Assembly (NCBI GenBank): GCA_022448265.1 | Contig: JAKVCC010000001.1 | Span: 1 to 41,661 of the forward strand | Length of the DNA: 41,661 nucleotides | DNA from: Pirellulales bacterium | GTDB lineage: Bacteria > Planctomycetota > Planctomycetia > Pirellulales > Lacipirellulaceae | Reading direction: 5' to 3' | Shown: positions 30,277 to 34,827 of the stretch, piece after piece | How the letters are laid out: each line of letters opens with the position of its first letter | Numbering within the stretch: the stretch's first letter is position 1 | Position numbers and translations under genes: made by a program | Notes under the pieces: generated by a model | The model's database searches: none | What the model was told of the DNA's origin: nothing | Seen by the model: the letters and a program-made list of their open reading frames with translations, nothing else

Positions 30277-31269
30277 GTGACCAAGGCCGAATTGATCGAC
30301 TATCTGTTGCAGCGGCAATTGATCCAGGATCGTAGCGTCGATGTTATCTCACTTCCTGGTGGTGTTTCCAGCGAGGTGACGCTGGTTCGCACCGCCAATC
30401 GTGATTTTGTCGTTAAGAGGGCGCTGGCCACACTGAAGGTTGCCGACCCATGGCATAGTGACCCCAGACGCAGCCACACCGAATGCCAGGCGATCCAGTA
30501 CGCAACCCGGTTCATTCCCGGCGCAGTGCCGAAAATCCTGGACGCTGACCTGGAGCGGAATCTGTTCGTGATGGAGTACTTCGGCCATGAATACACTCCC
30601 TGGAAAAGCCAGTTGATGGATGGTGAGATTTGCGCAGCGACCGCCCAGAAAATGGCCGTTTTGCTGGCGACTATCCACAATGCAAGTTGGGGGAATCACG
30701 AAGCGGAGAGTCTTTTTGACACGACCGACGATTTTTTTGCACTTCGCATTGAACCCTATCTGGTCATGACGGGCCAGCGCCACCCCGAACTCCAAGAGTT
30801 TTTTGGCGCCGAGACTGAACGACTCGGACGCGCGCGAACGGCACTCGTGCATGGAGACTTCAGCGCTAAAAATATTCTCGTGTCGTCCGACCGATGCGTC
30901 CTGCTCGATTGGGAGGTGGCCTGGTTTGGCGATCCGGCCTTCGATCCGGCGTTTTTGCTCAACCTGTTTTACCTCAAGTCACTCTATCGGAGGAAGTATT
31001 TTGATCAATACCTGGACCTGATTGCCACTTTTCTGAAGGCATACGCGGAGCATCTAGTCCATTTTGATCATGCGCTCGAATGTCGCATTTGCCGACTGAC
31101 TTTGTTGCTGATGCTGGCCCGCATCGACGGCAAGTCACCGGCGGAGTATATTACCAGCGACTCCGATCGTCAGCATGTCCGGCGCTTCGTCAAAGAACTT
31201 CTGTTGGACGGTGTGGTCGAATTTGCGGAGGTCGATGCGCGGTGGCGGAAGGAGGTGGCAGGCCTTTGA
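30277..31269 (+). CDS. APH-fold phosphotransferase (small-molecule kinase)
   Basis: A 330-residue protein of the aminoglycoside phosphotransferase/choline kinase fold. GTG 30277 is supported by AAAGGGG 5 bases upstream. Visible kinase residues are the nucleotide-binding K48 (FVVKRAL), the catalytic loop HGDFSAKN (192-199) with D194 and N199, and the metal-binding D211 (LLDWEVAW). Family members phosphorylate hydroxyl groups of small metabolites such as choline, homoserine, thioribose or aminoglycosides. Squeezed between a hydroxyacid dehydrogenase and an enolase paralogue with a 4-base overlap, it is a better candidate for a hydroxy-acid (glycerate-like) kinase than for antibiotic resistance. 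That assignment is inference from context. Confidence 0.83.
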   Translation: MTKAELIDYLLQRQLIQDRSVDVISLPGGVSSEVTLVRTANRDFVVKRALATLKVADPWHSDPRRSHTECQAIQYATRFIPGAVPKILDADLERNLFVMEYFGHEYTPWKSQLMDGEICAATAQKMAVLLATIHNASWGNHEAESLFDTTDDFFALRIEPYLVMTGQRHPELQEFFGAETERLGRARTALVHGDFSAKNILVSSDRCVLLDWEVAWFGDPAFDPAFLLNLFYLKSLYRRKYFDQYLDLIATFLKAYAEHLVHFDHALECRICRLTLLLMLARIDGKSPAEYITSDSDRQHVRRFVKELLLDGVVEFAEVDARWRKEVAGL

Positions 31270-32621
31270 AAGCGGATGACGGAAACATCGGCAATTATGT
31301 TGACCGAAATGTCGACAGAATTGTTGACAGAATAATCGATATCGACGCCTATCAGGTTTTCGACTCGCGCGGCAATCCGACGGTCGAGGCGACCGTCACC
31401 TTGGCCGACGGGTCCGTCGGGCGCGGCCTGGTTCCTTCTGGCGCTTCCACCGGCAAGTACGAGGCCTGGGAGCTGCGGGACGGCAACCCGAACCGATTTC
31501 GCCGCAAGTCGGTCTACCAGGCGGTCGCCAATGTGCTGGGGCCAATTCGAGAGGCCCTTTTGCGACTTGATGCGCCTCACCAAGGGATCGTCGATCAGCA
31601 GATGATCCTACTGGACGACACGAACAATCGATCTCATTTGGGCGCAAATGCCATCTTGGCGGTCTCCATGGCGTTTTGTTGCGCCGCGGCACAGAGCCGC
31701 AAGCTGCCGTTGTACGAGCACCTGGGCGGCGGCGAGGGCAACCTGATCCCATTGCCGGAGATTCAGATCGTTGGCGGCGGTGTCCACGCGGCCCGTACGA
31801 TCGATATCCAGGATTTTATGATTGTTGCCCCTCAGGCCCGCGGTTTCGAGGAGACCCTCGAGTTAACTTACAACGTTTACAAAGAAACGGAGTTGCTGCT
31901 CAAGGAGCGAGGGCAATTAGTGGGCGTTGCCGATGAAGGGGGGTTCTGGCCGCTGGTCGAGCGGAACGAGGAAGTTTTCGATCTGGTACTCAAGGCGATT
32001 GAACGGGCCGGATACACGCCGGGCACACAAGTGGCCTTCGCGTTGGATATTGCGGCCTCGGATTTGTACCGTGACGGCCAGTACCGACTCGCATCCGAAA
32101 ATCGCCAGCTAAGCACCGAAGAGTTAGCCAAAATGCTGGCCGGCTGGGCCCGAAATTATCCGATCGTTTCAATCGAAGACCCGATGGATCAGGACGACTG
32201 GCAGGGCTGGCAACAGATCATGGACGTGCTGGGCGACGAGATTCAGATTGTCGGTGACGATCTGTTTACGACCAACGTTGGCCGCATCCAGGAGGGTATT
32301 GCTAGGCAATCAGCCAGCGCCGTGCTCATCAAGCTGAATCAGATTGGCACTGTGTCGGAAACCCTTGATGCGATTCAGTTGACGCAAAGTGCAGGTTGGC
32401 GGGCGGTGGTCTCTGCGCGTTCTGGAGAAACCGAGGACGCGTTCATCTCTCATTTGGCGGTGGCCACCAAAGCCGGGCAGCTTAAGGTCGGCTCATTTTC
32501 CCGCAGCGAGCGGATGGCCAAGTGGAACGAAGTGCTAAGGATTGAGCGGCGGTTGGGCAGCAAAGCGCGTTACATCGGCGGAGAGGCGCTGAGCCCATCC
32601 TTCGGGTCTCGCCGCAGTTAG
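31266..32621 (+). CDS. Enolase paralogue with altered active site
   Basis: A 451-residue enolase-family protein. TTG 31266 is the supported start: AAGGAGGT (31249-31256) lies 9 bases upstream, and the codon overlaps the kinase stop. Metal ligands D261, E304 and D331, the base K356 (yeast K345), K407 (K396), the SGASTG loop (58-63), H174 (H159), E224 (E211) and phosphate-binding R385-S386 are all present. Two residues differ from canonical enolase: D183 replaces yeast E168, and A384 replaces H373 (SARSGETED instead of SHRSGETED). It also carries an N-terminal lead with VDR repeats (12-23). I infer a 2-phospho-acid dehydratase acting on a substrate other than, or in addition to, 2-phosphoglycerate. 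A genuine but divergent enolase is the alternative. Confidence 0.88.
   Translation: MKADDGNIGNYVDRNVDRIVDRIIDIDAYQVFDSRGNPTVEATVTLADGSVGRGLVPSGASTGKYEAWELRDGNPNRFRRKSVYQAVANVLGPIREALLRLDAPHQGIVDQQMILLDDTNNRSHLGANAILAVSMAFCCAAAQSRKLPLYEHLGGGEGNLIPLPEIQIVGGGVHAARTIDIQDFMIVAPQARGFEETLELTYNVYKETELLLKERGQLVGVADEGGFWPLVERNEEVFDLVLKAIERAGYTPGTQVAFALDIAASDLYRDGQYRLASENRQLSTEELAKMLAGWARNYPIVSIEDPMDQDDWQGWQQIMDVLGDEIQIVGDDLFTTNVGRIQEGIARQSASAVLIKLNQIGTVSETLDAIQLTQSAGWRAVVSARSGETEDAFISHLAVATKAGQLKVGSFSRSERMAKWNEVLRIERRLGSKARYIGGEALSPSFGSRRS
31299..31334 (+). repeat. Three 12-bp imperfect tandem repeats inside the enolase paralogue
   Basis: GTTGACCGAAAT, GTCGACAGAATT and GTTGACAGAATA follow each other and encode VDRN-VDRI-VDRI. 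The next 12 bases encode IDID, which leads into the normal enolase N-terminus (DAYQVFDSRGNPTVE). The unit length preserves the frame, so copy number can change without breaking the gene. Confidence 0.8.
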
Positions 32622-32693: not shown

Positions 32694-32975
32694 TCACGAC
32701 CCGGTGGGGCCTAGTTGGGCTGGCTTTGCATATTCAACCCTAAGCTTATCGACGACTTGGTAAACACCTGGAACGTGCCGGCAACAAAGGAAACATAGCT
32801 GTCGTTCGTGGAAGGAACGGACCGTCCCGGAGAGCGTTGCGACGCCACGGTCAAATTGCACATCCACTTCGGCCAACCATGGACCACCTCGTTGCCAAAG
32901 TAGGTTCAGTATCCGACGTGGAACGTCCGCTGTGAGTGAACTGGGTGGCCCAGCTGGTGTGCGAGTTGTGCCCAT
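32694..32975 (-). CDS. BON-domain protein, small
   Basis: A 93-residue protein with one BON domain: VDVQFDRGVATLSGTVRSF followed by a helix and VPGVYQVVDKLRVEYA. ATG 32975 is preferred because GAGGA lies 9 bases upstream; the ATG at 32984 is adjacent to that site and the frame stays open to 33074. BON domains bind phospholipid or peptidoglycan and often occur in envelope-stress or osmotic proteins. There is no signal peptide in this start choice, and two adjacent cysteines (FLCC) are present. It is alone, about 430 bp downstream of the metallothionein-like gene on the same strand. Confidence 0.7.
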   Translation of the reverse strand: MGTTRTPAGPPSSLTADVPRRILNLLWQRGGPWLAEVDVQFDRGVATLSGTVRSFHERQLCFLCCRHVPGVYQVVDKLRVEYAKPAQLGPTGS

Positions 32976-33408
32976 GTGACTCATTCCTCGAAATTCTTGG
33001 CGACCAAGATTGCGGCAAAGGGCGGATCGATTTACGAAAAAGATGCGATCCGGCCAACAGTCCCGCAGACGCAACCAATCCGTGCAATTCGTGTGCCAAA
33101 GTTTTCAGATAGTCGGCCAAAGAATAATCCTGGCCCACGAACGCCCTAATTCTCTCGACAAGCGGGTTTGTTCTCCTCCACTTAGCCAGCCCTTTAGATG
33201 TCTTGGTGTGCCTAAGAATCGGCACACGTGCGCCTTTTGTATGCACATCAGTCCGCCATGCGCGCGGGGAAATCAGCAACTGGTTTGCACAGCCAACATA
33301 TTATGCTTCCAGAGATCAGGTCGGAAAATAACTGCCACCTTAAGGTCATTACGCCAAGTTGCTGACCGATTTGGCGTCGCCCTGCGATGCAACACTAGCG
33401 CATGGCAC
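32976..33408. other. Stretch of 433 bp without an accepted gene
   Basis: A leftward open frame (from about 33279) runs through this stretch and into the BON gene in another frame. Part of it, LVERIRAFVGQDYSLADYLKTL, looks protein-like and could be a remnant or a short gene, but there is no recognised domain or clear ribosome site. A rightward frame (33010-33477) runs over the metallothionein-like gene and is judged spurious. Confidence 0.4.
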
Positions 33409-33504
33409 TTAGCAGGTGCAGCCCTCGCAAGAACAGTTTTCGCATTTGCAGTTGGCGCAATTGTCTTCCTTGCATGAGTCGCAAATACATGTGCAGTCAG
33501 TCAT
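33409..33504 (-). CDS. Metallothionein-like Cys-rich peptide, 31 aa
   Basis: A 31-codon gene from ATG 33504 to TAA 33409-33411. AAAGGAG lies 6 bases before this ATG; another ATG at 33510 abuts it and would add two residues. The peptide has 11 Cys: C4, 6, 8, 11, 16, 19, 21, 24, 26, 29 and 31, arranged as CxCxC then NCANCKCENCSCEGCTC, with no aromatic residues or His. This CxC/CxxC density is that of metallothioneins, which bind Cu(I), Zn or Cd as thiolate clusters. The length is nearer to fungal copper-metallothioneins (about 25 residues) than to cyanobacterial SmtA (about 56). It has no signal peptide, so it should be cytoplasmic. It is too short for many gene finders. Metal binding is inferred from composition. 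Confidence 0.78.
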   Translation of the reverse strand: MTDCTCICDSCKEDNCANCKCENCSCEGCTC

Positions 33505-33981
33505 CGTCATCTCCTTTGTCTTGCAGGAAAAAGTCTTAAACAACTAGATGTCGTTTACTAGATTGTATTCTGTCAACCGTAGCGACAGTGGTCACCGGAG
33601 ATCGACGGCCTGCCATGTATTATATTATATAGCGTCGTCTCCCAAGTCGTTTTTCCGGTGACAGCGGGCCTCGATGCTCTAGGCACCTAGGGCGATTCGT
33701 AGATATTGGCGGTCGCGACTCATCGTTTATTGGGCGGCCGGAAAAAAACACCGATCGAATCGCAATTTGCAGAAGTGGGGACCAGCCCACCACCAACGTC
33801 AGCATTTCATCCTTTAAATCGGCCACCTCCTCTGTCGGACTTGGGCATCCTCCTGGGTACATTGGGCCCAGGTTGCGCCACAAGTGGGCATAGGCTGTCC
33901 CCGGATTGTATCGCGCGGCGATCCGGCTTTTTTGCAGGGGGCCCCGAAAGGGATGTTTACAGAGTAACGACGTTGGCAGCC
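33505..33981. other. Upstream region of the metallothionein-like gene, 477 bp
   Basis: No accepted gene; a leftward 87-codon frame (33620-33883) has no recognisable motif. The part next to the Cys-rich gene contains an exact -35-like TTGACA (complement of 33571-33576), but the hexamer 17 bases on is a poor -10. A heptamer direct repeat (separate entry) is also there. The rest, to the stop of the FAH gene, shows nothing clear. Confidence 0.45.
33543..33563. promoter_or_regulatory. ACTAGAT direct repeat, possible operator of the Cys-rich gene
   Basis: ACTAGAT at 33543-33549 and again at 33557-33563 are identical, with a 7-bp spacer and a 14-bp period. They lie 39-59 bp upstream of the metallothionein-like ATG and overlap the spacer of a possible promoter with TTGACA at 33571-33576. 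Such spacing would suit a repressor or metal-sensing regulator. No regulator gene for it is in the window. Confidence 0.35.
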
Positions 33982-34827
33982 CTACACTGAAGCGACCGTC
34001 TTCTGCTGCTGCTGGCCGAGTCCCTCCACCTGCAGACGCATGGTCTGTCCTGCCTTGAGAAAAACTGGCGGTTTTTGGCCCAGGCCAACCCCCGGGGGCG
34101 TTCCCGTGGAGATGATATCGCCTGGCTGCAGCGACATGAAATGACTAACGTAGCTCACCAAGTGGGCGACCGGAAAGACCATGGTGCTGGTAGATCCGTC
34201 CTGATAACGGTTGTCGTCTACCTCTAACCACAGGTTGAGACTTTGCGGATCAGGAATTTCGTCGCGCGTGACGAGCCAGGGTCCGATCGGAGCAAAGGTA
34301 TCGCAGCTCTTCCCCTTCACCCATTGGCCACCGTGCTCCAGTTGCCACTCCCGCTCCGACAGGTCATTGACGATGCAGTAGCCGGCGACGTGATCCAGCG
34401 CTGCGGTCTCCTCGACATAGCGGGCCGTTGTACCGATCACCACGCCTAGTTCTACTTCCCAGTCAGATTTTTTGGAGCCTCGTGGTATCTGCACATCGTC
34501 GTTTGGCCCAATGATACTACTGGTGGCCTTCATAAAGAGAATCGGCTCCTCGGGCAGGGCCGCGCCGGTTTCCGCTGCGTGGTCGGCATAGTTGAGACCG
34601 ATGCATAGAAACTTGCCTGTACCTGTGACACAAGGCCCAATGCGCACGGAGTCGGGCACCAATGGGAGGCCTTCCGGGTCGATAGCGGCCAGTTTTTGCA
34701 GGCCGGCCTGCGAGAGCGACTCCCCCGTGATGTCTGTTACAATGCTTTCCAGCGAACGGATCTTCCCTTGGGAATCCACTAGCCCTGGTTTTTCTTTGCC
34801 AGCTGGTCCATAGCGTAATAGTTTCAT
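33982..34827 (-). CDS. Fumarylacetoacetate hydrolase (FAH) family protein
   Basis: A 281-residue FAH-superfamily protein. Metal ligands are E124 and E126 (DWEVELG) and D155 (VNDLSERE); K171 (WVKGKSCDTF) lies at the active site. IGLNYADHAAE, SLQPGDIISTGTPPGVG and a C-terminal Gly/Gln-rich end complete the pattern. Members hydrolyse or decarboxylate 2,4-diketo acids or related acylpyruvates, and this branch includes 2,4-diketo-3-deoxy-L-fuconate hydrolase and ureidoglycolate lyase annotations. It diverges from the iron alcohol dehydrogenase at 34959 (131 bp). Such a hydrolase would fit degradation of oxidised deoxy-sugar acids, consistent with the other enzymes in the window. Confidence 0.87.
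   Translation of the reverse strand: MKLLRYGPAGKEKPGLVDSQGKIRSLESIVTDITGESLSQAGLQKLAAIDPEGLPLVPDSVRIGPCVTGTGKFLCIGLNYADHAAETGAALPEEPILFMKATSSIIGPNDDVQIPRGSKKSDWEVELGVVIGTTARYVEETAALDHVAGYCIVNDLSEREWQLEHGGQWVKGKSCDTFAPIGPWLVTRDEIPDPQSLNLWLEVDDNRYQDGSTSTMVFPVAHLVSYVSHFMSLQPGDIISTGTPPGVGLGQKPPVFLKAGQTMRLQVEGLGQQQQKTVASV

Follow-up and report, generated by a model that had tools for sequence, protein, structure and literature searches.

A very short 11-cysteine metallothionein-like gene in a planctomycete and the SigZ coupling of its family in Flavobacteriaceae

Whether an open reading frame of 31 codons plus a stop can be a metallothionein gene, and how a planctomycete would have come by it, is the question raised by positions 33409-33504 (stop codon included, minus strand) of the window, i.e., the whole 41,661-nucleotide stretch of Pirellulales DNA analyzed here. 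The frame translates to MTDCTCICDSCKEDNCANCKCENCSCEGCTC followed by a stop: 31 residues, of which 11 are cysteines and none is His, Phe, Tyr, or Trp, in agreement with an earlier, sequence-only reading that had proposed a metallothionein-like microgene on this strand. The cysteines are arranged as CxCxCx2Cx4Cx2CxCx2CxCx2CxC (inter-cysteine gaps 1-1-2-4-2-1-2-1-2-1), and the peptide displays the general hallmarks of metallothioneins, namely small size with CxC/CxxC cysteine arrays (11 of 31 residues) and few or no aromatic residues (here none); inspection by eye shows no signal peptide. We think it likely, with a probability of roughly 0.83, that this is a real, very short metallothionein gene whose product would hold a cysteine-only cluster, that its family is coupled to SigZ in Flavobacteriaceae, and that the planctomycete copy was acquired. 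The ORF assignment draws on the translation, the family spacing, and a family-profile match; translation in the cell, metal binding, metal sensing, and self-regulation by SigZ are what we infer from sequence.

The cysteine density stands out from both the surrounding and the simulated DNA. The runner-up cysteine-rich open frames in the window hold 7 cysteines (frames of 26 and 20 residues), and in 60 simulations of 41.7 kb under an order-1 Markov null the maximum per open 31-residue stretch was 6 (34 simulations), 7 (20), or 8 (6). Under an order-2 null of four genome-equivalents (4 x 3.64 Mb), frames with 8 (24 cases), 9 (4), and 10 (1) cysteines per 31 residues appeared, and none with at least 11 did. 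That the frame arose by chance, or sits on a contaminating fragment of the assembly and is not a gene of the organism, we therefore hold highly improbable, even though assembly contamination is given as 3.16% and the searches made found no small relative in its genus, family, or order. Against contamination, the ORF lies inside a 41.7-kb stretch with the planctomycete-typical Pfam families PSCyt1/PSD1, DUF1501, and DUF1559; it is preceded by AAAGGAG, whereas by eye none of its bacterial relatives has GGAG in the 22 bases before ATG; and it encodes 9 of its 11 cysteines with TGC, whereas the relatives use TGT for 282 of 407. By Pfam, the gene is flanked by enolase (31080-32621, plus strand) on one side and a fumarylacetoacetate-hydrolase (FAH)-type gene (33982-34827, minus strand) on the other, with a short BON-domain ORF (32694-33074, minus strand) downstream of it; an opposite-strand ORF without a Pfam match (33010-33477, plus strand) overlaps it. 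Another frame in turn overlaps the BON-domain region (32694-33279, minus strand), which may represent a small gene that is truncated or shifted. A Pfam scan of 37 window ORFs found no metal transporter, metal repressor, or chaperone.

On the minus strand the Shine-Dalgarno-like AAAGGAG (33511-33517) is followed by ATGACG and then by the start codon at 33502-33504, so the earlier statement that this site lies six bases before the ATG holds. The ATG six bases farther upstream (33508-33510) is in frame and offers an alternative start: it would yield 33 residues, the usual length of the family, and the family profile aligns from 33510, yet no space would be left between the purine-rich site and this start codon. 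A simple sigma-70 scan of 33380-33980 returned zero sites. Farther upstream, at window positions 33591-33662 (87-158 bp before the start codon), a perfect 9-bp inverted repeat, GTCACCGGA/TCCGGTGAC with 54 bp between its arms, encloses an AT-rich TATATAATATAAT stretch and marks a possible control region.

Reference libraries place the peptide in no described group. It matched no family among the Pfam and NCBIfam profiles, including the curated SmtA/BmtA-type ones, and neither it nor one other member matched PHROG; among solved structures, three chance-level matches were found for the peptide and none for the family profile. Within its own phylum the peptide appears isolated. Searches with the peptide alone gave mostly noise, with hits in 14 of the 97 relatives searched at E<=10, in 7 of the 43 genomes of its family at E<=1, and in 4 of the 392 of its phylum at E<=0.1, each count including its own genome; the other loci read (L002-L015, L030-L032) contain no small metallothionein. 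Four of these (L002, L008, L011, and L012) encode long cysteine-rich proteins, by eye exported, which are not small members. Two of the four, L008 from the same family and L011 from the same order, share runs of CxxCx units with the window peptide while differing in size and design. Their frames, from about 721 (plus strand, 321 residues) in L008 and about 1180 (plus strand, 156 residues) in L011, carry dense CxxCxC repeats and have a metallothionein-like composition. A first profile, A1, seeded partly with segments of L008 and L011, matched 4 of 396 order genomes: the window, its own two sources, and one chance-like frame (L036). An FAH-like gene search matched 10 of 14 genus genomes, own included, and the neighborhoods at 13 loci in 9 other genomes contained no such ORF, where some matches may not be orthologues. 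Finally, a family profile (A2, described below) matched only the peptide's own genome (E 1.8e-9) among 392 genomes of the phylum. The sequence-only reading had suggested that such genes may be missed in planctomycetes; with 1 of 392 phylum genomes matched, this finds no support as a general statement. Since only that one genome matched, the gene is rare in its phylum, and probably acquired.

The relatives lie elsewhere. The A1 scan of a genome collection used the pattern C[KPT]C[ED]NC[SDT]C, so that members without this motif would be missed; it returned 256 stretches, from which 14 loci were confirmed, 13 from Bacteroidota and one from Pelagibacteraceae. Eleven of the 13 Bacteroidota loci are Flavobacteriaceae by name or by genus, where we take the named genera to belong to that family. 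All 13 encode 33-34-residue peptides whose 11 cysteines follow the spacing of the window peptide, unlike those of the Pelagibacteraceae locus. That locus (L046, 2992-3102) encodes MVCNNTHCKCENCSCDRCVCKNCDCKPSSKNCCCNK, a 36-residue peptide with 12 cysteines. Profile A2, built from the window peptide and the 13 Bacteroidota peptides (14 rows), identified 32 carriers among 199 genomes of Flavobacteriaceae, the family of L043 (a Lacinutrix), with the exact spacing in 28 of the 30 loci read from that sample, and a larger profile matched 4 of 257 genomes drawn across the phylum of L043. Over all 44 retrieved loci (L037-L050, L052, and L058-L086, a few fetched twice), 41 have the exact eleven-cysteine spacing, in 37 distinct core peptides, a conservation that is partly built in because the loci were retrieved by similarity; the exact core is absent in L046, L074, and L086. 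The 41 loci with the exact core are from Bacteroidota plus one virus contig, and Flavobacteriaceae is the family's main home in the samples searched. Relatives with the same pattern support, at the level of sequence, the proposal of a metallothionein-like microgene, and absence of the cysteine pattern from relatives, named beforehand as a result that would refute it, was not what was found: full-length members share all ten gaps, and most are tied to one neighboring gene. Members are 31-35 residues long, shorter than gene callers usually keep, and use both TGT and TGC in every cysteine column. The 14 A2 members had no match in Pfam and one stray match (E 0.044) in NCBIfam; the family and its SigZ coupling were likewise absent from the open-licence literature searched, which includes few subscription journals, and from the profile libraries, and the family is apparently undescribed.

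A shared cysteine pattern may have more than one origin: metallothioneins have arisen repeatedly, and a true metallothionein could have emerged independently in the planctomycete, perhaps out of CxxCx repeats such as the long, by eye exported L008 and L011 proteins of its own family and order contain. We consider such convergence unlikely, given that all ten inter-cysteine gaps coincide and that the agreement extends to other residues. The 17 non-cysteine core residues of the window peptide were scored against 23 members that the first scan had not returned. Of 20,000 shuffles, 8 reached the observed score, as did 18 of as many random draws from the family composition; with the first-retrieval motif removed, the counts were 39 and 156. 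The 23 reference members are not fully independent, because the profile that retrieved them had the window peptide as one of its 14 rows. The window peptide diverges somewhat more than the average member, with a mean core identity of 58% vs. 64% within the family, and it departs at two well-kept sites, where D replaces the G of 36 of 37 members and K the T of 30 of 37; its best core identity, 64%, is nevertheless typical within the family. As judged by these residue comparisons, similarity beyond the cysteines shows that the window peptide belongs to the 11-Cys family.

Shared descent then leaves the route. Horizontal transfer of the metallothionein gene by itself into the planctomycete is the probable one; this view, direction included, rests on distribution, because a peptide of 31 residues cannot support a reliable tree, and the scan of the genome collection saw only members with one motif. 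That mobile DNA can carry the gene is seen in the virus contig L052, which has its core; this does not imply the same route for the window copy. In L052 (IMGVR_UViG_3300020508_000007, 1713-2318) the ORF has an N-terminal DUF3008 and the full 11-Cys core at its end; the core could also be started on its own from an internal ATG that follows an AGAGG-like site, and adjoining ORFs match phage primase and exonuclease families. This was the single viral contig to match the family. Plasmid records gave 7 weak, short matches to the window peptide at E<=10, none covering 80%, and no match to one flavobacterial member at E<=1; phage records gave none to that member either.

In Flavobacteriaceae the family has a usual companion. 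Among 38 loci, 36 could be oriented (L074 and L086 could not), and in 31 of these the peptide is followed on the same strand by a member of a single protein cluster, in most cases 179-186 residues long; with L076, whose sigma gene the ORF filter had missed, the sigma-linked loci number 32 of 36. Profile matches of two factors point to the downstream protein as an extracytoplasmic function (ECF) sigma factor of the SigZ type: against TIGR02959 (cut-off 168.65) those of L042 and L037 score 172.8 and 165.6 bits, one above and one below, and the two best families for both are SigZ models, with NF007215 below its cut-off of 212 in either case. When the same 199 Flavobacteriaceae genomes were searched with the L043 factor (close homologues defined by E<=1e-45), 27 proved to have a close SigZ, and 26 of these 27 carry the 11-Cys peptide. 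In 26 of the 32 carriers SigZ lies directly downstream of the peptide on the same strand, with a gap of 6-249 bp; six carriers lack a close SigZ and 166 genomes have neither, for a Fisher p of 9e-26 that ignores shared ancestry. The 27th genome (L110) has a peptide gene that by eye is frame-broken, a similar promoter, and a sigma gene with an internal stop, and sixteen further genomes have more distant SigZ-like genes only. These counts show the linkage of the 11-Cys peptide to SigZ in the Flavobacteriaceae sample. Two of the six carriers without a close SigZ, L074 and L086, have altered cysteines (C to Y/F, or the last cysteine gone), as if the gene had decayed after uncoupling from SigZ. The arrangement is absent from the window, where no sigma factor was found beside the peptide among the ORFs scanned, and a search of the whole own genome, made for both the peptide and SigZ, gave five ECF-like matches to SigZ, none above the family cut-off.

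The linked loci also share a promoter. The motif TGCATCTTTTT-N11-CGTCTA is present in 32 of 32 sigma-linked loci, with 14-17 of 17 positions matched, a consensus derived from the very loci on which it was scored; the spacer is 11 nt in all, and in 30 of the 32 the motif lies 27-35 nt before the script-chosen start codon. In 640 single-base shuffles of the same DNA the score did not exceed 13, and loci without SigZ (L044, L046, L050, L081, L085, and L086; L074 was left out of the scoring) reached 10-11. The shape fits an ECF promoter, so SigZ may well regulate its own synthesis, and the conservation makes its regulon searchable. In the 200 bp upstream of the window ORF (33505-33704, minus strand) the best score for this promoter is 10 of 17, the chance level. 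A related arrangement was seen beside more distant SigZ-like genes, where all three loci read have upstream "type-2" peptides of 37-38 residues with 14 cysteines (L119, 1339-1455; L120, 1337-1450; L121, 2178-2065), behind a promoter of similar form, [TA]GTATCTTTTT-N11-xGTCT, that scores 14-15; no viral contig matched these peptides.

The sigma factors themselves are rich in conserved cysteines. Five are invariant in the 30 of 32 linked factors aligned (L076 and L079 were left out), one in the linker and the others in a C-terminal CC-x(n)-CxxC; the L079 factor is truncated to 134 residues and lacks the C-terminal cysteines. Outside Bacteroidota, a Vibrio SigZ has all five and a Priestia SigZ three, with no metallothionein beside either, and the layout is therefore a trait of SigZ and not of the pairing. 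An Arenibacter plasmid factor, encoded before a thioredoxin-family gene and a permease, lacks the linker cysteine and the last cysteine. Ten plasmid records contain a SigZ relative, and in the six read no small cysteine-rich ATG frame adjoins the sigma gene; SigZ as such is thus not tied to metallothionein. One of these records, L127, has two chance-like cysteine-rich frames at least 0.9 kb upstream.

We know of no signal reported for SigZ-type sigma factors. The closest parallel is the ECF238 (formerly ECF44) pair of Myxococcus, in which, according to PMC8999054, CorE answers Cu and CorE2 Cd and Zn, with the C-terminal cysteine arrangement setting metal specificity. The linked SigZ factors resemble CorE/CorE2 as ECF sigma factors with cysteine in the sigma2-sigma4 linker and a cysteine-bearing C terminus; they differ in having one linker cysteine where CorE/CorE2 have CXC, in their C-terminal CC-x(n)-CxxC, and in matching SigZ models. 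By analogy of layout, they are likely metal-sensing. In the circuit we propose for Flavobacteriaceae, a metal would activate the SigZ-type factor, which would read the conserved promoter ahead of the metallothionein gene, and the metallothionein would then lower free metal again. The fuller version of this scheme, a metal-response module in which SigZ senses a thiophilic metal via its own cysteines and drives its own operon, making the 33-residue metallothionein first, and in which the metallothionein travels without the switch, as a stand-alone gene in the planctomycete and, in the virus copy, joined to a DUF3008 protein or lying within one, has in our estimate an even chance of being right; there the feedback loop would be closed by removal of the inducing metal. 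The planctomycete copy is uncoupled from SigZ and must be controlled otherwise; its expression would rely on a ribosome site of its own and a different promoter.

The near-obligate pairing in the Flavobacteriaceae sample (26 of 27) could also be taken to mean that the peptide is regulatory and not a storage protein, a metal-loaded or redox-switched SigZ partner such as a soluble anti-sigma factor or metal donor. The type-2 peptides, different and tiny cysteine-rich products encoded before three distant SigZ-like genes, would fit this role, as would the altered cysteines in two of the six carriers that lack a close SigZ. Gene order also fits plain co-expression, however, and neither the window genome nor those 6 of 32 carriers has a close SigZ for the peptide to serve; we hold such a partnership unlikely. 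A metal-buffering metallothionein, the reading we prefer, also has to be set against a general thiol or redox buffer without a defined metal site. High cysteine content by itself is no proof of metal binding, yet identical CxC/CxxC spacing in 37 distinct peptides leads us to expect a metal cluster rather than an unspecific thiol reserve, and we regard the unspecific buffer as quite improbable. With no other good ligand present, the eleven thiolates of a metallothionein of this kind would wrap a cysteine-only cluster; the chemistry of other metallothioneins gives an expected load of about four Zn/Cd or six to seven Cu(I). The peptide, predicted to be cytoplasmic, would serve to buffer a thiophilic metal or to detoxify it.

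As a class, metallothioneins are known, and what appears to be new is the 11-Cys family with its SigZ coupling. Fungal copper metallothioneins are very short CxC/CxxC peptides, as in the 11-Cys family, and the mammalian metallothionein alpha domain, a four-metal domain, packs 11 cysteines into about 31 residues; both come from other kingdoms and are spaced differently, the mammalian domain having Cys-Cys pairs. The SmtA/BmtA type (Synechococcus SmtA, Pseudomonas metallothioneins) is alike as a small, cysteine-rich bacterial protein and likely Zn/Cd buffer, whose members we take to be longer than the window peptide. As given in excerpts of two reports, SmtA binds 4 Zn and Pseudomonas PflQ2MT binds 3 Zn or 4 Cd with nine cysteines and one histidine (PMC10612145, PMC7387436), and this type has histidine ligands, in contrast to the window peptide with neither histidine nor aromatic residue. 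The regulation differs as well: smtA is under the SmtB repressor in the part of PMC7387436 that covers it, whereas the 11-Cys family in Flavobacteriaceae has a linked sigma gene instead. Mycobacterial MymT, in an excerpted description a small copper-protective metallothionein under RicR (PMC10141476), is similar as a small metallothionein, a comparison by description alone. Bacterial metallothioneins with studied function numbered two before the 2020 paper's own, by an excerpt of that paper (PMC7387436). Against this background the 11-Cys family supplies a natural 11-thiolate scaffold of minimal size, allows a direct check on whether SigZ-type sigma factors are metal sensors, and is likely an instance of a metal-buffer microgene that has crossed phyla.

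Two metagenome-assembled loci without SigZ, L044 (after the peptide near 2087) and L050 (near 2902), have a 75-79-residue protein downstream of the peptide instead. That of L044 matched nothing in Pfam or NCBIfam; the protein is possibly membrane-bound, and it contains HIHxKPLISEVHESC.
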